This document shows positions 24,001 to 50,802 of a stretch of DNA of 64,000 nt, one piece after another (position 1 is the first letter of the stretch; the number at the start of each line of letters is the position of its first letter). Where the stretch lies: positions 1 to 64,000 of the forward strand of contig JAHFCE010000013.1 in NCBI GenBank assembly GCA_023249675.1, in the 5' to 3' direction. The stretch comes from Elusimicrobiota bacterium (GTDB lineage Bacteria; Elusimicrobiota; Elusimicrobia; UBA1565; UBA9628). The notes under the pieces were generated by a model that worked only from the letters and a program-made list of their open reading frames with translations, was not told the DNA's origin and did not search any database. The position numbers and the translations under genes were made by a program.

Positions 24001-24732
24001 ATGGCATCATCACCGGCAATGACGGATTTCCGGGTCTGGGTCGTCATCCACGAACCAACGCGCATCGAGAATTGGCGCCGCGTCATGGCCTTGTCCGGCT
24101 GGCCGGTGGAACCTATCGACCTGGCTGCGTTCTCCCGTAAAACGGCCGAGACCCTCTCCGGCCTGGCCTTGATCGACCTGGCGGTCTTAAACCCCCAACC
24201 CCAAGCCCGCGTCCGCGAACTCAAGGCCGCAGCACCCGCGGTCCCGCTCCTGCTGACCTACGCCGCCCCCATCCCCGACGCGGCCCTCATCGACATGTTC
24301 GAGGCGGGCATCGATGATTACCTGCCCGAATCCTTGGACCCCCGCCTGGCCCTGGCCAAACTTAATTCCCATCTGCGCCGCGTCCTGCCCCGCGTCGCGG
24401 AGTCCCTGGAAGTCATCTTCGCTCCGGGCGGCGACATCCGGCTGCAGCGGACGGGCCGTCGCCTGAGCATCAAGGGCCCGCGCGGAAAATGGGATGAGTC
24501 TCCAACGCTCACCCCGAAGGAGGCCAAGATGCTGGCCTTATTCCTGGAGCATCCGGGCATGGTCCTGGAGCGCCGCTTCCTGCTGGAGACGGTCTGGCGC
24601 GGCGAGGCGGAAGCCATACTGCCCGGCACCGTGGACAAGCACGTGGAATCCCTGCGCCGCAAGCTGGGCGCGAAGGGCAGCCGCATCCGCACGGTCTACG
24701 GCTCCGGCTATCTCTTCAAGGAGCACGCCTAA
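24001..24732 (+). CDS. OmpR/PhoB-type regulator with degenerate receiver domain
   Basis: A 243-residue protein with a receiver-like N-terminal domain (about 10-130) and an intact winged-helix DNA-binding domain (about 145-240: LTPKEAKMLALFLEHPGMVL, TVDKHVESLRRKLG, IRTVYGSGYLF). The receiver lacks the acidic pair (VVIHEP), has no clear phospho-Asp (LALIDLAVLNPQP) and has DYLPES where DYLxKP is normal. It is thus probably a phosphorylation-independent DNA-binding regulator. Its stop overlaps the ATG of the CheY-like gene (TAATG). It converges on the MotB gene and may control the 25-50 kb unit, whose upstream region holds PhoB-type direct repeats. Confidence 0.85.
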   Translation: MASSPAMTDFRVWVVIHEPTRIENWRRVMALSGWPVEPIDLAAFSRKTAETLSGLALIDLAVLNPQPQARVRELKAAAPAVPLLLTYAAPIPDAALIDMFEAGIDDYLPESLDPRLALAKLNSHLRRVLPRVAESLEVIFAPGGDIRLQRTGRRLSIKGPRGKWDESPTLTPKEAKMLALFLEHPGMVLERRFLLETVWRGEAEAILPGTVDKHVESLRRKLGAKGSRIRTVYGSGYLFKEHA

Positions 24733-25106
24733 TGAGAACCATACTGGTCGCCGACGACGACGAGATGTTCCGGGAGCTCGCCATCGAGATCGTGTCGAGC
24801 TCGGGCTACACGGTCCTAGCGGCCAAGGACGGCCAGGAGGCCTGGGAGCTGATCCAGAAGACTCCGGCCGACATGGCGGTCCTCGATCTCAACATGCCGC
24901 GCATGGACGGCATGGAGCTCACCCGCCGCATCCGCGCCGATGAGCGTTTCCGAAAGATGCCCATCCTCATGCTCACCATCCGCGCTTTGGTCGACGACCA
25001 GGTCTCCGGCTTCGAGCGCGGCGCCGACGACTATCTGACCAAGCCCTTCGACCAGAAGATGCTCCTCGCCCGCCTGCGCATACTCGAGAGACGCATCCTG
25101 GACTAA
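24732..25106 (+). CDS. Single-domain response regulator (CheY-like)
   Basis: A 124-residue stand-alone receiver: acidic triad VADDDEM, phospho-Asp52 in VLDLNMPRMDG, Thr/Ser switch in LTIRA and Lys in DDYLTKPF are all present, so phosphorylation should work. It has no output domain, as for CheY. The start overlaps the stop of the preceding regulator by 1 nt. It lies 13 nt from the convergent MotB gene, and a histidine kinase fused to FliF/FliG parts is encoded in the opposing unit, so a kinase-to-receiver-to-rotor circuit is a natural hypothesis. Confidence 0.9.
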   Translation: MRTILVADDDEMFRELAIEIVSSSGYTVLAAKDGQEAWELIQKTPADMAVLDLNMPRMDGMELTRRIRADERFRKMPILMLTIRALVDDQVSGFERGADDYLTKPFDQKMLLARLRILERRILD

Positions 25107-25119
25107 TCCCCGCCGCGGG

Positions 25120-25815
25120 TCAATCCGCCCGCAGCAGGTCGACCTCGATGCGCCGATTCTTGGCCCGGCCTTCCGGCGTCTTGTTGTCCGCTATGGGGTG
25201 GTGCTCGCCGTAGCCGCTGCCCGAGAGGCGCTGCGGGGGCACGCCGTGGGTCTCGAGGAAACGCATCACCGAGTAGGCCCGGGCCATGGAGAGCTCCCAG
25301 TTGGAGCTGTAGCGGCCCGCACGGACCGGGACGTCGTCGGTGTGCCCCTCGATGACGATGGGGTTGGGCACGGTGCGCAGCTGCTCGGTCACCGTGGTCA
25401 AAATGTGCAAAGCCCCCGGCCGCAAGTCCGCCTTTCCCGAATCGAACAGAACGCCCTCGGCGAGAACCAGACGGATTTTCTTGTCCCAGGTTTCGATCTT
25501 GGCGTATTGGGAAAGGTCCTGGCGGTCCATGGCCTCCTTGAGCTGTGCGACCATGGATTCCTCCTTCTCGCGCTTGACCGCACGCTCGAAGGCCGCAGAA
25601 CTGCCCTTGCCCCCGAATATCTTCTGGATGCCGATCAAGGTTTCCTGGAGCCGACGATCCTTGGAGCTCGCGGTGCTCGGCCGGCTGATGCCGAAGGAGA
25701 ACAAGATGAGGAAAAAGATCATGAGGTAGCTCATGAGGTCCCCGTAGGTCACCGCCCACAAGGCCCCGCGGTTCAGCTGGTTTTCCAACTCCTCGCTGCG
25801 TAGTCTTCTGACCAT
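25120..25815 (-). CDS. motB: MotB-like stator protein
   Basis: A 231-residue protein: short cytoplasmic N-terminus, one membrane helix (WAVTYGDLMSYLMIFFLIL) with the proton-carrying Asp26 in the MotB position, a linker of about 90 residues and an OmpA/MotB peptidoglycan-binding domain (VIEGHTDDVPV; NWELSMARAYSVMRFL; GYGEHHPIADNKTPEGRAKN). It anchors the stator to the cell wall. It is the last gene of the long minus-strand unit, 6 nt after motA. Confidence 0.92.
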   Translation of the reverse strand: MVRRLRSEELENQLNRGALWAVTYGDLMSYLMIFFLILFSFGISRPSTASSKDRRLQETLIGIQKIFGGKGSSAAFERAVKREKEESMVAQLKEAMDRQDLSQYAKIETWDKKIRLVLAEGVLFDSGKADLRPGALHILTTVTEQLRTVPNPIVIEGHTDDVPVRAGRYSSNWELSMARAYSVMRFLETHGVPPQRLSGSGYGEHHPIADNKTPEGRAKNRRIEVDLLRAD

Positions 25816-25821
25816 GGCGGC

Positions 25822-26559
25822 CTACCGGTAGGACCGGAGCTTGCGCTCGATGACCAAGGGCACGGTCCCGCGCAGCATCATGACGACCCCCTCGGCGACC
25901 ATGGTCTTGGCTTGCAGCTCCTCGATGTTGCGGCTGCGCAGCTTGCCGGCCACCGGCACGCAGATGGTGTTGGCAAGCGCGATCCCGTAGAAGGCGGTGG
26001 TCATGGAAATGGCCATGGAACTTCCCACCTTCTCGGGGTTGGAGAGCTCGCGCAGGACCGAGACGATGCCGATAAGGGTTCCCAGAAGACCGAACATGGG
26101 CGCGAGTATGCTCATGGTCCGGTAGACGTTGGCCATCTCGTTGTTGTGGTCGTAGGAGCTGTTGATCTCGGTTTCCAATATCTGCCAGACCAGGTCCGGA
26201 TTGTTGTACTCAATGGCCACGCCCGCGGCCTGGCCCAGGTAGCCGCCCACGGCGCGGGCGTCCACCTCCTGCAGGGCCGAAACTCCCCGGCCATGGACGC
26301 GCTCCGCGACCTCCATGATCGCGGTCACGATGCGCTCCTTGGAGGAATAGCGGTTTCCACGAAAGAATACGGCCAGGGCCGCCAAGGCTCCGCGCACGTC
26401 CGCCAAAGGCGTGTTGATGAGCATGGCACCGATAGTCCCGCCCAGAACGATGGCGAGGCCGTGCCAGTTGAGGAAGAAGGCGGGCAGTTCACCGGTGCCC
26501 ACCCCTAGGGCCACCATGCCCGCCAGCGCGCCGATTCCAAGCAATGTTGTGATGTCCAT
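25822..26559 (-). CDS. motA: MotA-like stator protein
   Basis: A 245-residue four-helix membrane protein of the MotA/ExbB/TolQ superfamily. It has the MotA-specific layout: large cytoplasmic loop (about 60-150) and two conserved prolines in LAPMFGLLGTLIGIVSVL and FYGIALANTICVPVAGKL. With MotB it forms an ion-driven torque unit. The start has a good Shine-Dalgarno (GAGGAG). No flagellar structural gene lies nearby; the candidate rotor partner is the FliF/FliG-containing fusion encoded upstream in the unit. Confidence 0.92.
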   Translation of the reverse strand: MDITTLLGIGALAGMVALGVGTGELPAFFLNWHGLAIVLGGTIGAMLINTPLADVRGALAALAVFFRGNRYSSKERIVTAIMEVAERVHGRGVSALQEVDARAVGGYLGQAAGVAIEYNNPDLVWQILETEINSSYDHNNEMANVYRTMSILAPMFGLLGTLIGIVSVLRELSNPEKVGSSMAISMTTAFYGIALANTICVPVAGKLRSRNIEELQAKTMVAEGVVMMLRGTVPLVIERKLRSYR

Positions 26560-26572
26560 GATGTCTCCTCGG

Positions 26573-26929
26573 CTACTTGAGCCTTTCTTCCAATCTCAAT
26601 ATGCGCCCCAGAAGTTCGCCGGCGACGCGATCCTCCCAAGCCTTCTGCCGCTCGCGACTCTCCTGTATTGCCGCGGCGAATAGCGCCTCCTGAGCCGCCG
26701 TCCGGCTCAAAATCTCTTCGATACGCTTCAAGAGAAGGGCGCGCGCGGAATCCGCCGCCTCGGCCGCCTCCGCTGGACCGGCGCTCAGCTGGGTCTCGAT
26801 CTTCTCCAACCGCTCCAGGACCGGCTGCAGGGACGGCTCCTGCGCCACGGGGGTCGCCGACGCCAGCGGCGGCTCCGAGGCTCGGCGTAGAGCGCCAAAA
26901 AGCGAACCTTTGCCCGTTTCAGCTTCCAT
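26573..26929 (-). CDS. Small Ala/Glu-rich coiled-coil protein of the motor unit
   Basis: A 118-residue soluble protein with a disordered N-terminus and long amphipathic helices (LQPVLERLEKIETQLS; ARALLLKRIEEILSRTAAQE; WEDRVAGELLGRILRLEERL). No family recognised. Its ATG overlaps the stop of the kinase-FliF-FliG gene by 11 nt and MotA follows 13 nt later, so it is made with the motor proteins; it could bridge FliG-like and stator parts the way FliH- or FliM-type helpers do, which is speculation. Confidence 0.75.
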   Translation of the reverse strand: MEAETGKGSLFGALRRASEPPLASATPVAQEPSLQPVLERLEKIETQLSAGPAEAAEAADSARALLLKRIEEILSRTAAQEALFAAAIQESRERQKAWEDRVAGELLGRILRLEERLK

Positions 26930-29441
26930 GACTTTCCTCCCCCTCGCTCATTTCTAGTTTTTTAGGCTCGCGACCCGCAAGATCCCCCACCCGCCCCGCA
27001 ACGATCAGGGCCGCGACGGTCTTGGCGACCTTGTCCTGCGCTGCGCGGCGTAACACCGCATCGCCCGGACGGGCCGCGATCATCTGACCCAAAACCTTGC
27101 GCGCCGCTGCAGGAGCGTTGGCGAGCAGAGCCGAGGCGGCCACGGCAGGCCCCTCGGCCAGGGCCAAGGCCCAGTCCTCATGGCTCACGCGCGACTGCAC
27201 CAAAGACCACTCCTCCGCAGTGAGGTTCGCCAGGTTCTCCATGAGGAATATCCGCCGGCGCAGCCGCTCCCCGAGGCCCGGATCTTGGACCGCGATGGCG
27301 TCGATCATGCGCTTGCGCTCGGACAGATCCGCCTCATCGAGCATGGCCGCGACCTTGCCCAAACCTCCCACCGCGCCCGCAAGCCTGCGCTCGAGCTCCT
27401 CCTTGAGATTGAGGATGAGGTCCGGCTCCACATAGCGCAGCCGGCCGAGGTTCACGAAAACCGCCTCGCGAGACTGCGGAGGCAAAGCGGCCAGGAGCAT
27501 GGCGCGAACTTCAGTATCCAAACGCTCCACCACCAAAGCCACGTTGGCCGGGTCCTCCCCGCTCATCATGTCGGCCAGGATTTCCACCTGATCCGGCCGA
27601 ACCGCGAAGCGCACGACATCCGCCCCCAGGCCCGCCGCCGCGCCGGATCCGGGTCCGGGTCCGGCCAAGGCACCCGCCGATGGGGCCCGCTCGCCCTCCA
27701 AGACCTGCGGCTCCCCGAAAGCGCCGCCCGAGGCCCCGCCTCCGGGACCCACATCCATGGTCAACGTGGTCTTCTGCGCCACGGCCATGTCGCGCATAGC
27801 TCCGGACAGCTTGAGAAGACTGATAGCCACGACGACCAAGGTCAGGAGCGCGAGCACGCTGACCAATGAGTACTTCACCACGATCCCCGCCATCTCCGGC
27901 TCCTGCCAGATCGTCTTCCACAACGGCATGAAAGATGATTTCACGATGGTCAAGGTGTCGCCGCGCATCGGTGTGATGTCCAATATCTCGGTCACGATGG
28001 CGCGCACATCCTCGGCCTGTTTGGCGTCCACGGAGTTCTCCAGTATGACCGTGACCGCCAGGCGCTTGAGGAAGTCCGCGGCGAAGGAGTTGCGGCGCTC
28101 GTAATTGCGCGGCCGGCCCCCGGCTTGGAGGATGCCTCCGAGACTGCCTCCGGCCGCGGGCACGCCGGGCAGGAGCTCGGCCTGGGCCGTGCCCGAGGCG
28201 TCCTGCATGTCTCCCCACAGATAAGGCAAAGAGCGCTCGGAACGCGCCGTGGTCGTGCCCTCGTTGCTCTCGAACTTCTCGATGCGCGTGAAGTCCACGG
28301 TGGCCTCGACCACGACCTTGTAGCGGTTGGGCCCGAGCATGCGCAGCAGGACTCCCTCCACGCGCTTTTCCAACGCGGACTCATACTTGGCCTTGTCTTC
28401 CAGGGGCAGATTCTGAGCGCGCAGCGCGGGGACCGCGGCCAGCATGAGGAGAAACCCCGCGACGGCCGCACGAACGAACGTTGGACGCGCCCGGTGCTGA
28501 GGCTTCACGGGCACTCGCACCCAAAAAGTCGAGCCCTTACCCAGGCCCGGGCTCTCCACGCCGATCTGCCCGCCGTGGTTGCGCACGATCTCCTCGGAGA
28601 TGGCCAGTCCCAGTCCCCAACCCGCGGCCGCGGCCTTGGCGTCCTTCGTGTACGTGGACTGGTAAAATTTCTGAAATATCTTGAGGCGCTCCGAAGGGTG
28701 AATGCCGGGCCCCGTGTCCTTGACGAAAAAGGTGACCCAGCCTCCCGTCAGGCGCACCCGCAGTTCCACGCGGCCCCCGGACGGAGTGAACTTGACCGCG
28801 TTGCCGAGCAGATTCTGCAGGACCCGACCCAGCCGGAAGCGGTCCGCGGTCAGAGCCGTGCCGACGGGGACCTCGCCCACGATGAGCTGCACGCCCTTCT
28901 GCTGCGCGACGAAGCTTGTCGTCGGCGCGATGTCGCCGACGACGTCGTTCAAATCGAAACTCGACATCTCGAGCCGATACTTGCCCGCCTCGATCAAGGC
29001 CAGGTCGGTCAGGTCGCCCACGAGCCGATTGATCTGCTCGGAGGCCCGGCTGATATAGGTCGCAAAACGCTTCTCCTTGGGACCCAAAGTAGGGCTCTTG
29101 CCCAGCATCTCGCTAAATCCCTTCACCGAGGCCAGCGGCGTGCGCACGTCGTGCACGGCCATGGAGAGAAACTTGGTCTTCAACGTGTTGAGGCGGGCGA
29201 GCTCCTCGTTGTTGAGCCGCAGCCGCGCGGAGAGAACCTCCAGCTCCCGACTGCGCCGCGCCAGCTGGGTCTGGGCCAGGGCCATCTGCTCGATGAAGCG
29301 CTGGATGATTCCGGAGTTGCGCCTCTGGCGCGCGGAAAAGCGCGAGAACTGGAGGAAGCCGGACAGCTGGCTGACCACCAGCATGGAGACAGCCAGCAGG
29401 AGAAAGACGAACGGCACAAGTCCGATCAGCACAAGTTCCAT
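26919..29441 (-). CDS. Fusion of sensor histidine kinase, FliF C-terminal domain and FliG-like domain
   Basis: An 840-residue protein in one open frame. Residues 1-26: membrane helix. 85-312: complete kinase (His97 in VHDVRTPLASVKGFSEML; N box LLGNAVKFTP; KDTGPGI; GWGLGLAISEEIV). 325-343: second helix that looks like a former signal peptide (VRAAVAGFLLMLAAVPALRA). 345-505: FliF C-terminal RBM3-type periplasmic domain (YESALEKRVEGVLLRMLGP, KVVVEATVDFTRIEKFE, DFLKRLAVTVILEN, RGDTLTIVKSSF). 520-546: third helix. 612-820: FliG-like helices (RPDQVEILADMMSGEDPANV, RRRIFLMENLANLTAEEWSL). RBM1/RBM2 of FliF are missing. GTG at 28508 could allow separate translation of the FliF-FliG part. GAGG precedes the ATG. 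The MotAB genes follow. Confidence 0.85.
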   Translation of the reverse strand: MELVLIGLVPFVFLLLAVSMLVVSQLSGFLQFSRFSARQRRNSGIIQRFIEQMALAQTQLARRSRELEVLSARLRLNNEELARLNTLKTKFLSMAVHDVRTPLASVKGFSEMLGKSPTLGPKEKRFATYISRASEQINRLVGDLTDLALIEAGKYRLEMSSFDLNDVVGDIAPTTSFVAQQKGVQLIVGEVPVGTALTADRFRLGRVLQNLLGNAVKFTPSGGRVELRVRLTGGWVTFFVKDTGPGIHPSERLKIFQKFYQSTYTKDAKAAAAGWGLGLAISEEIVRNHGGQIGVESPGLGKGSTFWVRVPVKPQHRARPTFVRAAVAGFLLMLAAVPALRAQNLPLEDKAKYESALEKRVEGVLLRMLGPNRYKVVVEATVDFTRIEKFESNEGTTTARSERSLPYLWGDMQDASGTAQAELLPGVPAAGGSLGGILQAGGRPRNYERRNSFAADFLKRLAVTVILENSVDAKQAEDVRAIVTEILDITPMRGDTLTIVKSSFMPLWKTIWQEPEMAGIVVKYSLVSVLALLTLVVVAISLLKLSGAMRDMAVAQKTTLTMDVGPGGGASGGAFGEPQVLEGERAPSAGALAGPGPGSGAAAGLGADVVRFAVRPDQVEILADMMSGEDPANVALVVERLDTEVRAMLLAALPPQSREAVFVNLGRLRYVEPDLILNLKEELERRLAGAVGGLGKVAAMLDEADLSERKRMIDAIAVQDPGLGERLRRRIFLMENLANLTAEEWSLVQSRVSHEDWALALAEGPAVAASALLANAPAAARKVLGQMIAARPGDAVLRRAAQDKVAKTVAALIVAGRVGDLAGREPKKLEMSEGEESHGS

Positions 29442-29462: not shown

Positions 29463-31010
29463 TCATCTTGATCGCGGGAAATTTTCTTCAACGAAGCTCC
29501 TCAACTTAACATTTGCCGGCTCCAACTGCAGAGCCTTGCGGTAGGCCTCCAAGGATTTCTCCCTGTTGCCGGAAGCGAAATAGGCGGAGCCCAGCTGGGT
29601 CCAGGTCAGGGCGTCGTCGGGAACCACAAGCAGGGAATCCGTCAGGCTGCGCACCGCCGCGTCGTAGCGTCGGGCCCGGACCGCCTCGACGGCCCGGCTC
29701 TGGCGCGCCTGCATGAAGGCGGTGGGTGCTATGATGTCCTCGCGCGTGATATTCACTCCCGTGGCCTTGGCCATGGATGTCAGGAACCTCATGTAGACCG
29801 AGCTGCGCCCGGACGTCCCGACGGCCACGTGGGCCAAGGTCATGGCCTCATTGAACTCGCCGTCGATGTAGCGGCTGATGCTGCGGCCGGCGAGCGCGGC
29901 GGCCTCGCTTCCAGACTTCAGCTCCTCGACGTCGGGCGACCCGGCGGAGAGGTCCATGCCCTCCAAGAGCTGGCGCAGGCGAACGGCCTTGCGCTTCCAT
30001 TCCCGGCCGCCCACGGCCAAGTCCATGCCGAGCGAGGTCTCGATGCTGGAGAGAGCCTTGGGGTAATCCCGCGCGGCAAGTTCGGAGCGGCCGTTGCCGA
30101 GATATTCCCCGGCCAAAGACGAGGTCTTCGCGGGCTTGCGCGCGCCGAAACGGTAGCCCAGAGACAGGCGCTGGGCCATGCCCAAGGCCGGGCTGTTGAC
30201 CACGGCCAGATCCAGGGAGAAGGCCTTGCGGAAGAGGAACCCGCCCCCGAAGGAGATGCCTTCGGGCGCGTAGCCGGCGCGCAGGGCCATGAGGCCGAAG
30301 TCGTACTCCGCGCCGACGCGCAGTTCCTGGACGCTGGAAACATCGAGGGACACGCTCATCGGCCCGAAGATCTTGTAGGAGGCGCCCGCGCGCAACGAGG
30401 TCGGCAGCTTGTCGGCCGTGTCGCCCGAACTCATGGAGAACGCGTTGCGCGCGACGAGGCCCACCATGAGGCGTTCGTCGGCCAGGGGGCCGTACTGGGC
30501 GCCCAGGTCCGCGCCGATCAGCCGGTCCGATGAGGAACCGAGAGAGCGGGTGAGAACCTTCAAGCCCGCGCCCAAAGACAACTGCGGCAAGAACACGCCG
30601 CGCCAACCCGTGCCGAAGGCAAGGCCCGTCTCCGAGTAGGTGAAGCCCCCGGCGGAGTTGTTGAGCGCGTCGCGGCCCTCGCCTCCGGACGCGGATAGAC
30701 GCACGAGCTGCACGCCCCAACCGCCCGATCCCTTGCGGCGGTTCTGAGCGTAGCCCAAGTAGTCCATGGAGGCGCCCCCGTAGAGGTTGGCCCGCATGAA
30801 GGCCACCTGGCGGCCCTCGAGGAGCCCCATACCCGCGGGGTTGTAGTAGAGGGAAGAGACGTCCCGCACCGCGGCCGTGTAGGCGCTGCCCATGCCCGGA
30901 CCCCGGCCGCCGGCCCCGATCTCGAAGATCTGGCCCGCGCCGGCAGACTGCGCCCGCGCCCCGGTCGAGGCGAGGAGAACGAGCAGTCCGGCGAGGCGGA
31001 TAGTCTTCAT
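29463..31010 (-). CDS. PorV-like outer-membrane beta-barrel with C-terminal TPR domain
   Basis: A 515-residue exported protein: signal peptide (LAGLLVLLASTGARAQ), a beta-barrel of the PorV/PorQ (UPF0164) type at about 22-300 beginning with GRGPGMGSAYTAAVRDVSS and YYNPAGMG, then helical repeats to the end, with a clear TPR at about 455-500 (ALTWTQLGSAYFASGNREKS). PorV in type IX secretion receives cargo with a C-terminal sorting domain at the outer membrane. The giant protein encoded 1 nt upstream ends in such a domain, so the two probably form a cargo-shuttle pair. The TPR extension is not part of standard PorV. Confidence 0.82.
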   Translation of the reverse strand: MKTIRLAGLLVLLASTGARAQSAGAGQIFEIGAGGRGPGMGSAYTAAVRDVSSLYYNPAGMGLLEGRQVAFMRANLYGGASMDYLGYAQNRRKGSGGWGVQLVRLSASGGEGRDALNNSAGGFTYSETGLAFGTGWRGVFLPQLSLGAGLKVLTRSLGSSSDRLIGADLGAQYGPLADERLMVGLVARNAFSMSSGDTADKLPTSLRAGASYKIFGPMSVSLDVSSVQELRVGAEYDFGLMALRAGYAPEGISFGGGFLFRKAFSLDLAVVNSPALGMAQRLSLGYRFGARKPAKTSSLAGEYLGNGRSELAARDYPKALSSIETSLGMDLAVGGREWKRKAVRLRQLLEGMDLSAGSPDVEELKSGSEAAALAGRSISRYIDGEFNEAMTLAHVAVGTSGRSSVYMRFLTSMAKATGVNITREDIIAPTAFMQARQSRAVEAVRARRYDAAVRSLTDSLLVVPDDALTWTQLGSAYFASGNREKSLEAYRKALQLEPANVKLRSFVEENFPRSR

Positions 31011-31011
31011 G

Positions 31012-34000
31012 TCAATGGATCACGCCGATCTTCAAAATTTCCTTCGCGCCGCCCGCAGTGATGACCGCGAGGTAAACGCCCTTCGACACCTTCCCGGAGT
31101 CGCCCGAACCGTCCCAGACCACGACGTTGGTCCCCGCGACGCCCGCGACGCTGAGCTCCTTGAGCGTGACGCCGTAGATGGAGAATATCTTGATGGAGAC
31201 ATCGGAGGATGAGGCCAGGTTGAAGACGATGGTCGCATTGCCCTTGCGGCTGTCGAAAGGATTGGGGTAGGCCGCGACCCCGCTCAGGGCGGTGGCAGAC
31301 AGGCCGCCGTTCTGTATGCGCACCTCCTCCGATGTCGGCCCCAGCGTGCCCGCGCCGGACACCGCCCGGGTGCGGAAAATGAGAGTCCCCGAAGGCAGGC
31401 CGACCGCCACGAGGGGCGGCGAAGCCAGATCCGAGTCGGCCACGGACTGCGGACCGACGCCGGCGAGCGCCAACGCGCTCGCCGCCTTGGTCCGCGCGTT
31501 GAACCAACTCGGGCTCTCCGCCTTGCGATACTCCACGACATAACCCTTGATTCCCGATGAGCCGGCAGCGACCGGGGTCCAGTTGACGAGCAAAGAGTTC
31601 TGTCCGACCTGCACCGAGGGCGCCACAGGTCTGGCCGGCACGGCCGAGTCCACCATCTGGCCCGCGCTCAGACCCGCAGCGCTCGTAAACCCGAAGCTCG
31701 AGGTCGCGCGCACCGAGACATAGTAGGTGCTCCCGTTGAGAAGGGTCAGGCCCGAGGCCGTCACGGCGCTGAGCGTCGGGCTCAACGCGGTCCAGGCCAA
31801 GGTCTGCGCCCCCCCCGCGGTCGTGCCCACGCAGTACTCGGCCGACTGGAGGCTCCCCAACGCGACGCTGGAGGTCCACACAAAACGGATGGACTCGAAC
31901 GACGACCCATACGCGCCATCCGGCAAGGTCACGACCGGCACGGTCGGAGTCTTGGCGTCAAGCACGCTGACCAAGGACGTCTGGACCGGCAGGTTTGAAG
32001 CCGCGACCGAGTCCGGCGAGGCGACGGTGAAGTACGAGGCGTCCTGCATCGACAGCCCGATCGTCGCACCCACCGTGGCGTTTGAGTCCAAGGCCAGGGC
32101 CGCAAAGTAAGTCCCTGTCGCCGTGGCCACGGTCTGGGCCGAGGACAGGAGCACGGTCGAGACTCCCGAGGAGAAAGTCCCCGTGCCGATCAAGAGATCC
32201 GCCCCGCCCAGGACCGAGTCGCCGTCCGCATCCTTGTAGATGCGGACCTGAGTGACGCCCGAGTCGGCCAAGGTCCCCGATTTCTGGAGCTTGACCGTGG
32301 TCCAGGTCAGGCTCTGCCGCGAAGCCCAGGCCAGGATCTTGAACGCCGCGAACTGCGAGCCCTGGATCACGTTGCCCGACAGGAGCGCTGTGGTGTTGAC
32401 AGTGAGCGTGTCGGGCACCTTGGCGATGGGCGAAACAGAGGAGTCCATAGGGAACCCGGAGTTCACCACGTAGTTCGGGGAAGTCACGCTCAAGGACGCG
32501 GTCGACGCCACCCGGACGCCGAATGTCTTCGCATAATTCGCGAAAGCGGCCATGTCCGCGGCGACCAGAAGCCGGAGGTTGGAAGGCGCGGCCGCGGGAA
32601 CCGGGGAAAGCCCCACCACGGCCTTGCCGCCCAAGAACGGGTTCGCAGCCGAGGCCAGCTCCTGGTCCCCGGCATCTAAGAGCCCGTTGGCGTTGTTGTC
32701 CGAATAGACCCTCAGGCGCGCGATATCCGCGTCTGCGGCGGTCCCCAAGGCGCTGAACTCGATGGAGGCCAGCGGCACCGCATTGGACGTGGTGTTGAGC
32801 AACAAGCTCATCATGAGCTGGGCCGTCGCGCCCTGCGCCAGCGAGGCCGGAGCCTTGTCTTGAATGCTGACGGACACCCCATTCTGCGTCGGGTCGATGC
32901 GAGTCAAGCCCGATGAAACGGGGAAACCCGAAGCCGCCACGCTGTGAGGGGAGGCGATATTGATGGAACCCGGCGTGCCGATCGCCGCACCCACGGTGTT
33001 GCCGGACACGGCCGTTGCGGCGATGTCGTAGGCGACGAACCAAGTCTTCGTCGAGGTCGTCACGGTCCGAGCCGCGAAAGACAGGGCCGCGTAGCCGCCG
33101 GAGAATGCGGCCGTGGCGAACTGGGTGTCTGAAAACGCGCTGAGCACGCCGTCCCCATCGTCCTCGTAGAGCCGCACGCGGCTGATGTCAGAGTCCTGCC
33201 CGCTTCCGCTGCGGGCCACCGTGAGGCCCGACACCAGGCCCGAGTACTGCTCCATGCGCAAGGCAAGAGACAGCATCGGCCTGTTGATGTCGCTCTGGAA
33301 CGCCGAGGCCGGCGCTGAAGCATAGGCCAGCATGTAAAGCTTCTTCGGCGGAGCGCTCACGGACACCGCCGGGGACTCGAAGGAGGTCGTCGCCATCACG
33401 TTGGGCGCGGCCACCGTAAAGTAGGTCTTGTCGGAAGCGCGGACCGACACGGTGTGCCCGGGCGCGGCCGAGGTGGAGAAGTCCACGACCACGAAATAGC
33501 GCTTGGAGGCCGTGTTCAAGGTCTGCGTCGGAGAAATCGCCAAGGTCACGACGCTGGGAGTGCCCTGGCTGCCGAAAGTCAAAGCACTCGAGGTCACCAA
33601 TTGGTAATTTCCGATGTTGTTGGCGTCAAAGGTTCCAGCGCCGTTGATGTCGTAGTAGACCTTGGCGGCCTTCACGTCCGCGTCCGCGCCGGAGCCTCCC
33701 CGGTAGAGCTGCAAGGAAGTCCAGCCGGCGTCCGAAACGTCCGTATGCAGGAGCAAAGCGACCATGGGCACGTTCGCGGCCCCCGGATCCGCGGAAGCCG
33801 GTGCGACGGCGGAGCTGGAAACGGAAACCGTATCCGCGTACTCCGCGATCGACACCGGAACCGTGTCGAACGGATAGTTCGGAGGGCCGGTGGACACGAT
33901 GTTGGGGCTGTTGACGCCGAAGGCCGCGGTCGTGGACACCCGCACACCCACGGTGGCGTTCACCAGGGCCGAGGGGCTGAGGTCCACGGCGACGAAATAC

Positions 34001-37000
34001 GCGTGGGCGGTGGCGGTCGCGCTCTGCGGCGAGGAGAAACCCAACGTCGCCGCGCCGCCCGAGAAAACATCCCCGCCCGAACTCACCAGGCTGTCCGTGC
34101 TGGTCTGCAAGACCCCGTCGCCGTTCTCATCCCGGTACACCTTGACCGCCGAGATCGCGGAATCAGCGGCCGTTCCCAACCTCGTGAGGGCCAGCGACGA
34201 CCATGTGATCGGATTGTTGTTGGATTGCACCGTCAGGCGCAGAAGTGCGACGTTCGTCGCGCCCTGAAGAAGGCTTCCGGGAGACTGATCGAGCGGAGTC
34301 GCCGTCAAGGTGTTCACCACGGCTCGAACGGTGCCGGTCGAGCTTGCAAACGGGAAGTTGCCGGCCACCGTGGTATACGCACTCGCCGCCCGCACGTACG
34401 AGGCGCTCAACAGGCTCGCGCTCAACGTATCGCCGGCATTGGCCGAGGCCGCAACCTCGTAGACCACGAACAGCGCCGCAGTCGAGCCCGCGTTCAAGGT
34501 CACGGTCGTGATATTCACCACGGCCGAAGCGCCCGAGAACGCGGCCTGGCCCCGAAGGCTGTCGCTGACCGAGTCCCAGGCCCCCCCGTCCATGACCGCA
34601 TCCAGGTAAACCTTGACCGCGACCACATCCGCGTCCGCGCCCGCGCCCGTCCGGTTGACCGTAATCCTGTTCACCTGGGCCGAGCCGGTGTTGACGGTCA
34701 TGGAGGCCCGGAGCACCGCGTAGGAAAGTCCCTGGGCCAGATCGGCCGGCGCTAGGTCCGCCAAGGTGACGCTCACCGTATTGGGCGTCTGGACCGAGGA
34801 AACGCCCGAGGCCATGGGAGTCGTTGAGAAAATCACCGTGTCCAGCGGCGTGTCCAGGTGGAACTCGGTGGGCGTGGCCACCCGCACCGTGAACGTGCTT
34901 CCGGCCGGCGCGTCCGCGGCCAGGCTCACGGACACGAACAGCCTTGTCGAGGGGGCGTCAGAGACCGTGCGGGACGACTGCGAGGCCGCAAACGCCAGGG
35001 TGGCGACCTTGGCCGAAAAGAGGTCGGCGCCCGAAGACCAGAGCAGGTCCGAGCTCGGCTCGAAAGTCCCGTTTCCGTTGACGTCCTGGAACACCTTGAC
35101 CGCGGTCACCTTATTCGACGGCAAAGACCCATCCAGGTAAAGGACCAGGTCCTTCAGGATGCTCGTCCCGCCGGCGGAGGCGGTCGCCGTGAGCTTGAGC
35201 ATGCCCACGTTCGTGTCGCCGGGGACGATCAAGGTCGGCGCTAAGCTCGCGGGCGTGACCGTCAGATCGCTCGCCCCGTCTCCGATCGTCCCGAGGCTCG
35301 AGGCCGCGAGCAAAGCGCCGGTGGAAACGTAGGGGGAGTCGAACGCAATATCGGTCGAGACATGGATGTCGGCGCCAAGCGTATTGCCCACGACGGCCTG
35401 CGTCTGGATCTGGTAGACGGCGAAGAAGGTCTTGGTCGAGGAGGTCAGCGCCGAGGCATTCACGCCCAGATCGACCGACGCCTTTCCCGACGCCATCGCG
35501 GCGGCCCCGAGCGGAACGTCCAGGCTCGCGCTGAAAGCGCCGTTGCCGTCGGCGTCGTAGTAGACCTTGACGGAGGACACGGCCGAGTCGGGCGCCGTGC
35601 CGGTCTTGTACACCGTCAGGCTGCGGAAGGTCGTCGTGCTGTCGACGGGCGAGCGCAGGGAGAGTTTGAGCATGGCGTTCTCGCTGCCCTGCAGGAGGCT
35701 CGCCGAAGCCGCGTTGGCCGAGGAGACGGTCACCACGGTCGCGTCCTGAGTGCGCGTCGAGCCGAGAACGACGAAATCGTTGGCGGCGCCGATCGCGTTG
35801 AGCGCGCGCACCCGGGCGTAATAGGTCGCGGCGGGCGTCAAGTCGTTGGCCGCGATGCTGAGGCCGCTGCTGGAGAACGACTCGAGGACGGGGACGAAAT
35901 CGGAGCGCGTGGAAATCTGCACCTGGTAGCTGGCGCCGGACGCGTTGTAGGCGCCGCTCACGGGGCCCGAGGCCCAGGAAACCGTCAGCACCGAGAAGGT
36001 GGCCTGGGAGACCCGCGTCAGCGCGATGCCGGAGGCGGGCAAGGTGGCCACGGCCAAGGTGTAGGTGGAGACCGTCGGCGACTCCACGCCCAGACGTCCG
36101 GCGCTGTTGCGCGCCTGGGCCTTGAAGGAATACTGCGTGTTGGGCGTCAGCCCCGTGAACTGGCGAGAGAAGCCGGGGTCGTACTCCTCGTTGACGGCCA
36201 ACGTTCCGTTTCCTCCGAGGGCGTATATTTTTCCGCTCACGGCGGCCGCGGCGAGGAAGGTGCGCGCCGTGGGCAGGCCGGACCGGGGGGACCAACTGTT
36301 GGGGATCGGGTCGTATTCCTCGTTGGCGACGCCGTTGTTGCCTCCGAAAGCGTAGAGTTTTCCGCCCACCGCCGCCGCGGCCAGCCTCTCGCGCGCCGTG
36401 GGCATGGCCGCCTTCGTGGTCCAACTGTTGGCCGCCGGGTCGTACTCCTCATTGACGGCCAAGCTGGAGCCGCCGTTTCCTCCGACAACGTAAAGCTTGC
36501 CGCCCACAACCGCCGCGGCCGGAGAATAGCGCGCCGTCGACATGGCGGCCTTGGTCGACCAGCTGTTGGTCGCCGGATCATACGCCTCGTTCTCCGCCCG
36601 ATTGGAGCCGCTGTCTCCTCCGACGGCGTAGAGCTTGCCGCCCATAACGGCCGCGACCAGGTAGCCGCGCCCCGTGGGCAGGGCGGCCTTGGTGGACCAG
36701 CTGTTGGCCGCCGGATCGTACTCCTCGTTGGCCGTCGGGTAGGCGGCTCCGGTGTAGCCTCCGACGGCGTAGAGCTTGCCGCCCACGGCCGCCGCGGCCA
36801 GGTAGCCGCGCACCGTGGGCACGACAGCCTTCGTCGTCCAACTGTTGGCCGCCGGGTCGTACTCCTCGTTGGTCGCCAGGTAGGAACCATTGTTGCCTCC
36901 GACCGCGTAGAGCTTGCCGCCCACGACGGTCACGGCCAGACCCTGGCGCCCCGTCGATATGACGGCCTTCGTCGTCCACGCGTCCCCCGAGCGCCAGCCC

Positions 37001-40000
37001 GCATAATTGCCGTCTCGCGCCACGTTGATCCCCGATGAACCCACGCTTTGGTTGGCGAAGGCCGGGGTGGGCGCGTAGGCCGAGGCCGTGATCGTCCCGG
37101 CGAAGACCTCGTCAAAGACAATCGTCGTGGGCGTCGCGGCCGCGTTGAAGGTCGTGAGGACCACGCTGTAGCCGATGTCCGACGCGGTGGAGAGCTTGAC
37201 CTTGAAGTAATAGGTCGTGTTGTCGGCCACGGCATAGGTCGTGGTCTGCAGGCCCACCGTCCCCAAGGCCGAGCTCAAGTTGACGCTGAAGTTGCTCATC
37301 GTCGAGAGCACCACCAAGGGCGTCTCCGAGGCCGGCGTGTCCAAGGTCCAAGAGGCGACCAAGGTGTTGCTGGCGATGAAGGTGAACTGCACGTTGGTCG
37401 GCCCGACGGCGAGCGTCGTGGTCGAGCCCAGCACGTAAGGATCGCTGGCCGTTCCCAGGACGTTGCTGGGCCGGACCCGCAAGTAGTAGGCCGTCCCGGA
37501 CGCGAGCCCGGTGATGTCCGCGGACAGGTTCGCTGTCTGAGAAGAGGAGGCGACGGGAACGAAGTCCGAGCGCGTCGAGGCCTGGACCAGGTAGGAGGCG
37601 CCGGGACCGTTGAAGCCGCCGGCGGCGGTGCCGGAGGACCATAAGACGCTGACTTTGTTCCATTCGACGAACGTGACGGCCGACCCGGTCAGGGGGCTTG
37701 AGGCCGCGGCCAAGGTGTAGGTGGAGACCGTCGGCGACTCTTCGGAAAGTCGGCCGGCGCTGTTGCGCGACCGGGCCTTGAAGGCGTACTGGGTGTTGGG
37801 CGTCAGGCCCGTGAAGGCCGCCGCCGTGCCCGGGTCGTATTCCTCGTTCTGGCTACTCCCCCCATCTCCACCGAGAACGTAGAGCTTGCCGCCCACGACC
37901 CCGGCAGTGGCGGGCAAATACCAGCGCGAGGTCGGCACCGGCGCCCGGGTCGCCCAGGCGTTGGCTGCGGGGTCGTATTCCTCATTTTTTCCGTTGCCTG
38001 GAGTCCCCCCCAGCACGTACAGCTTGCCGCTCACGGTTCCAACGGATGAGAGGGCCCGGCCGGTCGGCATGGCCGCCTTGGTCGCCCAGGAGTTGGCCGC
38101 CGGGTCGTATTCCTCGTTCTGATTCTGCGCCCCGACATCCCCGCCCACCACATACATCTTGCCGCCCACGACCCCGGCCACGGCCGAGGACCGGCCGGTC
38201 GGCAGCGCGGCCTTGGTCGTCCACGTATTGAGCGCGGGGTCATAGGCCTCATTCTGCGTCGGGTATCCGCCATCGTACCCGGCCGTCACATACATCTTGC
38301 CGCCCAGCACGGCGATAACCTGGGTTCTTCGCACGGTCGGCGCCGGCGCTCGAGTCGCCCAGGAGTTGGCCGCGGGATCGTATTCTTCATTTTTGGTCAA
38401 GTTGGACGCCCCGTCATACCCACCCACCACATAAATCTTGCCGTCCACGACTCCAGTCGCCAAATACCACCGCGCAGTCGGCAGATCGGCCCTGGTGACC
38501 CAGGAATTGGCCACGGGATCGTATTCCTCGTTCTTGATCTTGGGCGTGGCTCCCTCTCCCCCGATCACGTAGATCTTGCCCCCCACGACCGCGACGCCGG
38601 CACGGGTGGAACGAGCGGTCGGTATCGCGGCCCGGGTGGCCCAGCTGTCCCCCGAACGCCAGCCCGCGTAGGTGCCGTCGCGCGCCACGTTGATCGCCGA
38701 TTGGCCCACGCTTTGGTTGGCGAAGGCCGGGGTGGGCGCGTAAGCCGAGGCGACAATCGCCGCCGTCGAGATCTCGTCGAAGGCGATCGTCGTCGGCGTG
38801 GCCGCCGCGTTGAAGGTCGAAAGAGCGACGGTGTAGCCCGAATCCGACGCGGTGGTGAGCTTGACCTTGAAGTAATAGGTCGTGTTGTCGGCCACGGCAT
38901 ACGTCGTCGTCTGCAGGCCCAAGGTCCCCGCGGCCGAGCTCAGGTTGGTATTGAAGTTGCTCGTCGTGGAGAGCACCACGAGCGGCGTCTCCGAGGCCGT
39001 GCTGTCCAAGGTCCAGGAGACGACCAAGGTATTGCTCGAGATGAAGGAGAACTGCGTATTGGTCGGCCGCGTCGTCGGAGTCGTCGTCGAGCCCAGCACG
39101 TAGGGGTCGCTCACCGTTCCCAACGCGTTGATGGGCTTGACCCGGAAATAGTAGAGCGTCTGTCCCAAGAGCCCGGAGACGTCGGCGGAAAGGTTGGCCG
39201 TCTGGGAAGAGGAGGTGACGGGAACGAAGTCCGAGCGCGTCGAGGCCTGGACCAAGTAGGAAGCGCCAGGGCCGTTGAAGCCGCCGGCGGCGGAGCCCGA
39301 GGACCACGCGACGGTGACCGTATTCCACTCGACAAAGGTGAAGGTCTGCCCGGACAAAGAGGTCGAGGCCGCGGCCAAGGTATAGGTGGAGACCGTCGCC
39401 GACTCGACGCCCAGCCGCCCGGCGCTGTTGCGCGCCTGAGCCTTGAAAGAATACTGGACGTTGGGAGACAGGCCCGCGAACTTCTGCGAGAAACCGGGGT
39501 CATACTCCTCGTTGACGGCCAGGCCGGAGCCTCCCCCTCCGATCGCATACAGCTTGCCGCCCACGGCCGCCGCGGCCAGGTTGTAGCGCACGGTCGGCAT
39601 GGCGGATCGGGTGGCCCAGCTGTTGGAGGCTGGATCGTATTCCTCATTGACGGATCCTCCGACCGCGTACAGCTTGCCGCCCACGACCGTCGCGGCCAGG
39701 TTCGCGCGCGCCGTGGGCATGACCGCCCTCGTCGCCCAGCTGTTGGTCGCCGGGTTGTATTCCTCGTTGGTCCTCAAAGTGGAGCCGCCGTCTCCTCCGA
39801 CGGCGTAGAGCTTGCCGCCCACGGCCGCCGCGGCCAGGCCGGAACGCGCCGTCGACATGGCGGACCTGGCGGTCCAACTATTAGTCGCCGGGTCGTACTC
39901 CTCGTTGGTCGTCAGGTTGGAGCCGCCGAAGTAGCCTCCAACGGCATAGAGCTTGCCGCCCACGTTGACCGCGGCCAGGTTATTGCGCGCGCTGAGGGCC

Positions 40001-43000
40001 GCCTTGGTGGACCAGCTGTTGGCCGCCGGGTCGTACTCCTCGTTGGTCGTCAGATTGGTGTCGACGCCGTTGTAGCCTGCGAGGGCGTAGAGTTTGCCGC
40101 CCGCGGCCGCCGCGGCCAGCAACGTGCGCGCCGTGGGCATGGCGGACTTCGTCGCCCAGCTGTTGGCCGCCGGGTCGTACTCCTCGTTGAGCGTCGTCGC
40201 GGCGGCGCCGGTGTTGTAGCCTCCAACCGCGTAGAGCTTGCCGCCCACGACCGCCGCGGCCAGGTTATAGCGCGCCGTGGGCATGACCGCCTTCGTCGTC
40301 CAACCGTCCCCCGAGCGCCAACCAGCGTAAGTACCGTCTCGCGCCACGTTGACCGCCGATTGACCCACGCTTAAGTTGGCGAAGGCCGGGGTGGGCGCGT
40401 AGGCCGAGGCGGTGATGGCCGCCGTCGAGATCTCGTCGAAGGCGATCGTCGTGGGCATGGCGGCCGCGTTGAAGGTCGTGACGACGACGCTGTAGCCCGC
40501 GTCCGACGCGGTGGCGAGCTTGACCTTGAAGTAATAGGTGGTGTTGTCGGCCACGACATAAGTCGTCGTCTGCAGGCCCAGGGTCCCCGTCGACGCGCTC
40601 AGATTGACGCTGAAATTAGGCGTCGTGGAAAGCACCACCAGCGGCGTGTCTCCGGCCGGAATGCCCAAGGTCCAGGAAGCGACCAAGGTGCTGCTTGAGA
40701 TGAAGGAGAACTGCACGTTGGCCGGTATGATGGCGGGCGTCCGAGTCGAGCCGAGAACGTAGGGCACGTTGGCCGTTCCAAGAACGTTGGTGGCCCGGAC
40801 CTGGAAGTAGTAGGTCGTGTCGGAGACGAGCCCGGAGACGTCGGCGGAGAGGTTCGCCGTCTGGGAGGAAGCGTAGACGGGAACGAAATCCGCGCTGGTC
40901 GAGGCCGAAACCAAGTAGGAGGCGCCGGGGCCGTTGAAGCCGCCGGCCGTGGTGCCGGAGGACCACGAGACGGTGACCTGGTTCAAACCGATGGAGGTGA
41001 AAGCCGACCCGGACAAGGGGCTTGAAGCCGAGGCCAAGGTGTAGGTCGAAACCGTGGGCGACTCGGCGCTGAACCGGCCGGCGCTGTTGCGCGCCTGGGC
41101 CTTGAAGGAATACTGAACGTTGGGCGACAGACCCGTGAATGAACGGGAGAAGCCGGGATCGTACTCCTCGTTGGTCGCCAGGACGCCGGCATTGTAGCCT
41201 CCAACCGCATAGAGCTTGCCCCCCACCGCCGCCGCGGCCAGGGCATCGCGCGCGGTGGACGCAGCGGACTTCGAGGACCAGATGTTGGCCGCCGGATCAT
41301 ACTCCTCGTTGGCCGTCAACGTGGAGCCGCCCACGGCGTAGAGCTTGCCGCCCGCAACCGCGGCGGCCAGGCCATAGCGCGCGGTCGGCATGACCGCCTT
41401 CGTCGCCCAGGCGTTGGCCGTGGGGTCGTACTCCTCGTTGGTCGCCAGGTTGGAGCCGTTGTAGCCTCCGACCGCATAGAGCTTGCCACCCACGGCCGCC
41501 GCGGCCAGCTGATTGCGCGCCGTGGACATGGCCGCCTTGGTGGTCCAGGCGTTGGCCGCCGGGTCGTACTCCTCATTGGTCGTCTTATAGCCGCTGTTGT
41601 CTCCTCCGACGACATAGAGCTTGCCCCCCACGCTCGCCGCGGCCAAGTTGATGCGCGCCGCGGGCATGGCGGACTTGGTGGACCAGCTGTTGGCCGCGGG
41701 GTCGTACTCCTCGTTGGTCGCCAGGTTGCTGGTGCCGTTGTAGCCTCCGATCGCGTAGAGCTTGCCTCCCGCAGCCGCCGCAGCCAGCCTCTCGCGCGCG
41801 CTGGGCATGACGGACCTGGTGGACCAGCTGTTGGAAGCCGGATCGTACTCCTCATTGGTCGCCAGGCGAGCGCTCCCGCTGTTTCCTCCGATGGCGTAGA
41901 GCCGACCACCCACAACCGCCACGGCCAGGTTATAGCGCGCCGTGGACATGGCGGACTTCGTCGTCCAAGCGTCTCCCGAGCGCCAGCCCGCATAGTTGCC
42001 GTCACGCGCCACGTTGATCCCCGATGAACCCACGCTTTGGTTGGCGAAAGCCGGGGTCGGCGCGTAGGCCGAGGCCGTGATGGCCGCCGTCGAGATCTCA
42101 TCGAAGGCGATCGTCGTCGGCGTCGCGGCCGCGTTGAAGGTGGCGATGGCCACGCTGTAGCCCGCATCCGACGCGGTGGTCAGCTTGACCTTGAAGTAAT
42201 AGGTCGTGTTGTCGGCCACGACATAGGTCGTCGTTTGCAGGCCCACAGTCCCCGCAGCCGAGCTCAAGTTGACGCTGAAGTCGCTCATCGTGGAGAGCAC
42301 CACGAACGGCGTCTCCGAGGCCGGGCTGTCCAAGGTCCAGGAAGTCATCAAGGTGTTGCTTGAAATAAAGGAGAACTGCACGTTGCTCACCAAGGTCGGC
42401 TGGAGGGTCACCGTCGAGCCCAGCACGTAGGGATCGTTGGCCGTTCCCAAAACGTTGAGAGCTTGCACACGCAGATAGAACGTCGTCAGGTTGCTCAAGG
42501 CGGACAGCGTCGCCGAAAGATTGGCCGTCAGCGAGGAGACAGAGATCGGAATGAAGTCCGCGCGGGTCGAGGCCTGAACCAAGTAGGAGGCGCCGGGACC
42601 GTTGAAGCCGCCGGCCAAGGAACCGGAGGACCACGAAACGGCGATCGTGCTCAACCCGACGGAGCTGAAAGTCGGCCCGGACAGGACGCTCGAGGCCACG
42701 GCCAAGGTGTATGTGGAGACCGACGTCGACTCGACGCCCAGCCGACCGGCGCTGTTGCGCGCCAAGGCCTTGAAGGCATACTGAACGTTGGGCGCCAACC
42801 CTGCAAACTTCTGCGAGAAGCCGGGGTCATACTCCTCGTTGGTCGCCCGGTAGGCGCCGTCGTAGCCTCCTATGGCATAGAGCTTACCGCCCACGGCCGC
42901 CACAGCCAAGGAATAGCGCGCCATGGGCATGGCGGACCTCGCGGCCCAGATGTTGGCCGCCGGATCGTACTCCTCATTGGCGGCCACGGCCACCGAGCCG

Positions 43001-50748: not shown

Positions 50749-50781
50749 ATAGCCTCCCAAGTGTAAGGGAGCGGCCCGGGA

Positions 50782-50802
50782 AATCACGAAGCAATCACGA
50801 AG
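50782..50802. promoter_or_regulatory. PhoB-type direct repeat upstream of the giant gene
   Basis: AATCACGAAG occurs twice (50782-50791 and 50793-50802), separated by one base, an 11-bp period. OmpR/PhoB winged-helix regulators bind such tandem half-sites. It lies 34-54 bp upstream of the giant gene start. Confidence 0.45.

Follow-up and report, generated by a model that had tools for sequence, protein, structure and literature searches.

Background

Flagellar rotor proteins are usually viewed solely as parts of the flagellum. A stretch of 64,000 nucleotides from an Elusimicrobiota bacterium (contig JAHFCE010000013.1; hereafter the window) holds a gene in which a histidine kinase is followed, in a single frame, by relatives of two such proteins, FliF and FliG. 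A preliminary description of this gene took the product for a rotor or ring scaffold whose assembly or switching is directly coupled to phosphorylation, and framed it in terms of the flagellum. Here we ask whether the fusion is genuine, whether its kinase and rotor parts stay in one chain, and to what kind of machine they may belong.

Results and Discussion

Domain architecture of the fusion protein

The gene runs without interruption from ATG to stop, and the parts of its product can be assigned as follows (aa, amino acids; TM, transmembrane).

26919..29441, minus strand: histidine kinase - FliF RBM3 - FliG fusion protein, 840 aa (Pfam domains and conserved motifs)
29376..29432, minus strand: N-terminal TM helix of the kinase, residues 4-22 (hydropathy)
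28983..29180, minus strand: HisKA domain with His97, residues 88-153 (Pfam; His97 invariant)
28503..28844, minus strand: HATPase_c catalytic domain, residues 200-313 (Pfam; motifs invariant)
28416..28478, minus strand: junction, a signal-peptide-like TM helix ending LRA/QN, residues 322-342 (site common to unfused FliF-FliG signal peptides)
27930..28346, minus strand: FliF RBM3-like periplasmic domain, residues 366-504 (Pfam, family profile, AlphaFold model, Foldseek)
27813..27869, minus strand: TM helix linking RBM3 and FliG, residues 525-543 (hydropathy; long helix in the model)
27372..27584, minus strand: FliG middle domain, residues 620-690 (Pfam, family profile; FliM-binding EHPQ motif not conserved)
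26988..27299, minus strand: FliG C-terminal (torque) domain, residues 715-818 (Pfam, family profile, Foldseek)

All five Pfam domains score above their own cut-offs, in the order HisKA (53.3 bits), HATPase_c (95.6 bits), YscJ_FliF_C (28.0 bits over the entire profile, cut-off 23.8), FliG_M (37.6 bits, cut-off 25) and FliG_C (35.8 bits, cut-off 23.3); the last three are the profiles that the preliminary description had proposed as a check. When a family profile of the portion C-terminal to the kinase, made from 12 sequences, was run against solved structures, it retrieved FliG (1lkv, E 2.8e-38) and FliF (9yh6, E 2e-6). An AlphaFold model of the full-length protein (mean pLDDT 67, pTM 0.31) gave kinases only among the 50 Foldseek matches listed, and for this reason the FliF-FliG part was modelled separately, with a 36-sequence alignment (mean pLDDT 78.5, cores well modelled). 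In this second model the first domain follows the helix-strand-strand / strand-strand-helix-strand order of RBM3, with a disordered insert at the position of the collar, and is succeeded by a long TM helix and then by the helices of FliG. Foldseek placed FliG structures at the top (FliG M-C, 1lkv, E 1.4e-10), followed by the RBM3/collar of Salmonella FliF (6sd1, E 4.7e-6; also 7cg7); SpoIIIAG and PrgK matched weakly.

The three-domain frame of kinase, FliF C-terminal RBM3 and FliG is thus borne out by Pfam, family profile and Foldseek. Its identification with FliF and FliG holds for RBM3, FliG_M and FliG_C, but does not extend to the remainder of either protein: RBM1 and RBM2 of FliF, with their N-terminal TM helix, were not found by Pfam or in the AlphaFold model, the interval between kinase and RBM3 consisting of the junction helix only, and Pfam gave no FliG_N match in the fusion protein. 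Since RBM1/2 are missing, assembly of a ring would differ from that of flagellar FliF.

The kinase half is a class I histidine kinase by its H box His, N, G1 and G2 motifs, and its active site is predicted to be intact: His97 and the residues of the N box, DxGxG (G1) and GxGxG (G2) are invariant among 13 fused sequences. In its HisKA-HATPase_c core with all motifs it resembles orthodox class I sensor kinases such as HK853 and ZraS, from which it differs in being fused or operon-linked to a motor and in its sensor parts, which comprise one TM helix and a coiled coil, with no periplasmic or PAS sensor domain recognised. The FliF-FliG join is group-wide, and the distinctive trait of the window protein is the added kinase.

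Operon and neighbouring genes

On the minus strand, a giant surface protein, a PorV/TPR protein, the fusion, a coiled-coil protein, MotA and MotB are encoded in this order, with short gaps or small overlaps, and two regulator genes lie beyond motB.

31012..50787, minus strand: giant surface protein, 6591 aa, with kelch-like repeats, FN3 and a T9SS type A sorting-like end at 31027-31272 (one base from the PorV gene)
29463..31010, minus strand: PorV/PorQ-family outer-membrane barrel with C-terminal TPR (NF033709, 79.5 bits, below its 90-bit cut-off)
26573..26929, minus strand: short coiled-coil protein, 118 aa, its start overlapping the end of the fusion gene (ORF, comparison with relatives)
25822..26559, minus strand: MotA stator protein (profile match; P173 and P222 equivalents kept)
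25120..25815, minus strand: MotB stator protein with OmpA-type domain (profile match; Asp32 equivalent kept)
24732..25106, plus strand: single-domain response regulator, convergent with motB, candidate kinase partner (Pfam)
24001..24732, plus strand: OmpR-type winged-helix regulator (Pfam)

The C-terminus of the giant protein scores 31.0 bits against TIGR04183, the T9SS type A sorting domain (cut-off 23), and outscores every other match to this domain in the genome, which has five, four of them above the cut-off. A protein with such a C-terminal domain is encoded directly upstream of PorV in 13 of the 14 operons of the fused clade for which upstream sequence is available, and the same family was found at this place in none of 24 operons of the sister clade. 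A gene 67% identical to the single-domain response regulator occupies the same position in G137/L033, and a homologue of the OmpR-type regulator follows motB in several relatives of family f2.

The coiled-coil protein, whose gene separates those of rotor and stators, measures 118 aa here and mostly 300-820 aa in relatives (504 aa in the closest, L033); in many relatives these proteins share an N-terminal S-[IMLF]-F motif. Elsewhere in the window, a 947-aa ORF at 19334-22177 contains repeated phospholipase-D-like HxK motifs, as read by eye.

Distribution and origin of the fusion

A survey of related genomes for the same domain order, as the preliminary description had suggested, recovered it in 15 Elusimicrobiota genomes from several sequencing projects and from three families of one order. 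The genomes are metagenome-assembled, and one of them, G024 (= L038/L102), carries two ORFs in place of one, so that an assembly error or frameshift joining two genes might be suspected; with 15 fused ORFs in independent assemblies from different studies, and with a natural ATGA overlap between the two genes of G024, this explanation is practically out of the question, and we reject a frameshift or chimera. The single uninterrupted frame is therefore real.

In a maximum likelihood tree of the FliF-FliG part the fused sequences all fall on one side of a branch with 100/99 support. On the opposite side stand 30 sequences in which kinase and FliF/FliG are separate genes of a related operon. The exception is G024, which is nested within the fused clade. 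The simplest history that these sequences suggest, with the root of the tree not fixed, would be a single fusion and one later split. The usual order in the sister clade is PorV-HK-MotA-FF-coiled coil-MotB (HK, kinase; FF, FliF-FliG), and that of the fused clade PorV-[HK-FF]-coiled coil-MotA-MotB; the changed position of motA thus accompanies adjacency of the kinase and FliF-FliG genes, and fusion needs little beyond loss of the kinase stop codon.

Comparison of close pairs indicates purifying selection on both halves, with dN/dS of about 0.03-0.28 (kinase) and 0.05-0.34 (FliF-FliG); in most pairs the junction is less constrained and changes more quickly than either domain. This copy of the gene is missing from several relatives within the same genus.

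One chain or a cut precursor

The unfused FliF-FliG proteins begin with signal peptides, which mostly end in [AG]/Q (the slash marking the cleavage site) before a conserved LP[LF][ED]. Most of the fused proteins retain a hydrophobic helix of like length and place, and its predicted orientation, which places the kinase inside and RBM3 outside, matches the one expected for a signal peptide. A scan of the junction in the 15 fused sequences found Ala at -1 in all of them and Gln at +1 in 13. Because most fused copies retain such a helix together with an Ala-x-Ala/Gln-type site, cleavage of the chain may take place in the living cell. The gene product could then be a co-produced precursor which signal peptidase I cleaves at the junction, and whose kinase and RBM3-FliG parts act separately, as in the sister clade. 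We regard this as a substantial possibility: the [AG]/Q-type site is common to unfused signal peptides and fused junctions, the junction is the fastest-evolving of the three parts in most pairs, and one clade member, G024, has split genes. On the other hand, no stop has interrupted the frame in 15 genomes spanning three families, signal peptides may be cut less readily when internal than when N-terminal, and some of the sites are weaker (PIQA, KTGA); in L033 and L037 the site found by the scan lies within the helix, though a later LRA/QT or ARA site is present. Separate translation of FliF-FliG from an internal start found no support, as an ATG lies near the junction in some members, with a poor Shine-Dalgarno match, and is missing in others.

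The direct coupling of a rotor to phosphorylation must accordingly be divided into two claims. A link between kinase and rotor is supported by context, since in the sister clade the kinase appears as a separate gene beside those of MotA, FliF/FliG and MotB. Coupling within one chain is uncertain, because of the likely signal-peptidase site at the junction and of the clade member with overlapping genes. If the chain is cut, the motor model set out below stands and one-chain coupling falls, and the fusion would provide equal amounts of kinase and rotor at the same place; if it is uncut, every rotor subunit would bear a kinase.

A probable motor outside the flagellum

The flagellar framing of the preliminary description did not survive. 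Neither FlhA of the export gate, for which the control genomes gave matches, nor FliM/FliN of the C-ring had a match in this genome, which is 98.6% complete, and the neighbouring genes point to outer-membrane secretion or surface movement. Among 147 genomes of the class, a FliF-FliG match is present in 88, FlhA in three (two in family f9, one in f2) and FliM/N in two. A flagellar basal body is rejected on these markers, FlhA and FliM/N, which were the flagellar ones searched. The His of the FliM-binding EHPQ motif is lost in 50 of 50 FliG sequences, as expected where there is no FliM.

The gene might instead be left over from a flagellum since lost, and either persist by chance or be decaying; FliF, FliG, MotA and MotB are all relatives of flagellar proteins, and three class members have a flagellar FlhA. 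This we consider very unlikely: the operon is conserved across many genomes, dN/dS is low for both halves in close pairs, several paralog types have PorV neighbours, and the FliM-binding motif has been lost yet the proton path is retained. The equivalent of the proton-carrying Asp32 is kept in 41 of 41 operon MotB proteins and those of P173 and P222 in 47 of 47 operon MotA proteins, and the stators accordingly look able to use the proton gradient.

In E. coli, charged residues of FliG and MotA matter at the contact between rotor and stator. At the position of FliG R281, 42 of 50 sequences have K or R and the window protein has A; in the operon relatives D288 is replaced by Q or E and D289 mostly by T, S or M, and the position of MotA E98 is mostly K, R or Q. 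Given the loss of these acidic residues, the predicted contact of stator and rotor, if one exists, is different from the E. coli type.

Taken together with the gene neighbourhood, we think that the protein is probably, though by no means certainly, the rotor subunit of a non-flagellar proton-driven motor that serves the secretion or movement of a giant protein and is linked to signalling by its kinase; ring, rotation, cargo and phosphotransfer are all inferred. The periplasmic RBM3 domain would form or anchor the ring, the following TM helix would span the inner membrane, and the cytoplasmic FliG_M-C part would take up torque from MotAB stators anchored in the peptidoglycan by MotB. Motor and PorV/TPR outer-membrane protein could then act on the 6591-aa surface protein, whether to export it, to anchor it or to move it, in the manner of GldLM/PorLM, and a kinase placed at the motor might set its activity, or report its state to a response regulator, for which the products of 24732-25106 and 24001-24732 are candidates. 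Several points tell against the motor reading: the charged residues of the E. coli contact are not all kept, several relatives in the genus lack this copy, RBM1/2 are missing, SprA-like proteins occur without FliF-FliG as well, and the shortness of the coiled-coil protein suggests that one component has changed or partly decayed in this genome.

A static ring scaffold or pore, comparable to the RBM rings of SpoIIIAG or the injectisome, could likewise organise the kinase and the outer-membrane proteins, with MotAB alone acting as a 5:2 motor that pushes on the envelope. The weak Foldseek matches to SpoIIIAG and PrgK and the loss of the acidic residues of the FliG torque helix and of MotA E98 agree with it, whereas a plain scaffold has no need of FliG_C, and both FliG_M and FliG_C persist over long distances alongside the MotA and MotB of the operon; we hold the scaffold to be unlikely.

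Other putative motor sets and T9SS-like parts

FliF-FliG paralog types other than the fusion likewise adjoin PorV-family, MotA and MotB genes in genomes of the class. The present genome (G000) encodes a second FliF_C-FliG protein, of 520 aa and without an in-frame kinase (contig C21:1-9260, locus L115); grouped with it are a partial barrel/TPR protein, at least two histidine kinases encoded separately, and MotA and MotB genes in convergent orientation. Proteins of ~660-680 aa with FliG domains (L117:8894-10885, L118:8664-10652, L120:9076-11124) represent another paralog type, which also adjoins PorV-family, MotA and MotB genes; L117, in which this was scanned, has C-terminal TPR repeats.

A SprA-like protein is encoded in this genome by a frame of 1871 aa (C14:17125-20655), which is 85% identical to a related protein that matches SprA_N; the SprA_N model itself has no match in this genome. 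Such proteins occur in 139 of the 147 class genomes, including small ones without FliF-FliG (Pfam SprA_N detects only 16); the motor is thus not needed for SprA-like proteins. GldM was matched in 0 of 147 class genomes in a search whose control was silent too.

Comparison with known systems

The bacterial flagellar motor shares with this system RBM3, FliG_M, FliG_C and MotA/MotB with the proton-carrying Asp and the prolines. The differences lie in FlhA, FliM, FliN, RBM1/2 and FliG_N, which are absent from this genome or protein, in the single chain of FliF and FliG with an added kinase, and in the outer-membrane and surface protein neighbours. Fusions of FliF and FliG have been engineered in the laboratory, e.g. 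in Vibrio, within true flagella (PMC11481574); these also place both proteins in one chain, whereas the join described here is natural, lacks FliG_N and RBM1/2 and includes a kinase.

In Bacteroidota, the GldLM motor drives both secretion by the T9SS and the movement of SprB. The cytoplasmic part of the T9SS motor protein PorL/GldL is a phosphorylation-dependent binding target of the response regulator PorX (PMC5005315, PMC10951265). Two-component control of a motor of this kind thus has a precedent, which does not prove that it operates here. With the T9SS/gliding system (GldLM/PorLM, SprA, PorV, SprB, PorXY) the present one has in common a predicted proton-driven inner-membrane motor beside a PorV-family protein, a giant protein with a type A-like C-terminal domain, a SprA-like protein in the genome and two-component proteins linked to the motor; in place of GldLM, the operon here encodes MotAB and FliF/FliG.

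MotAB-like 5:2 motors outside flagella are also represented by AglRQS of Myxococcus gliding and by ZorAB of Zorya, neither of which is known to use FliF/FliG. The MotA of the operon had no PADLOC match, and Zorya defence was rejected, the similarity being confined to that of MotB type to ZorB, with ZorA unmatched among the operon proteins scanned. A search of the literature, from which subscription papers mostly and bioRxiv wholly fell outside, yielded no description of FliF/FliG in Elusimicrobia, of non-flagellar FliG homologues or of non-flagellar FliF-FliG motors or fusions. The parts are individually known; their combination appears to be new.

Conclusions

More tentatively, the Elusimicrobiota may possess a new class of rotary nanomachine, in which MotAB and FliF-RBM3/FliG have been freed from export gate and C-ring and, in more than one paralog type, coupled to giant surface proteins through outer-membrane proteins of PorV type, and in which a kinase on each rotor subunit would link motor state and phosphorylation in one ring. 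The wide occurrence of FliF/FliG/MotAB operons in genomes that lack export gate and C-ring would demonstrate that the torque engine of the flagellum is reusable, and maybe older as a module, which bears on the origin of the flagellum and on how non-flagellar motors power secretion and gliding. Because the kinase shares the operon, and in the window protein even the chain, it would allow the route by which signals reach such motors to be tested directly.
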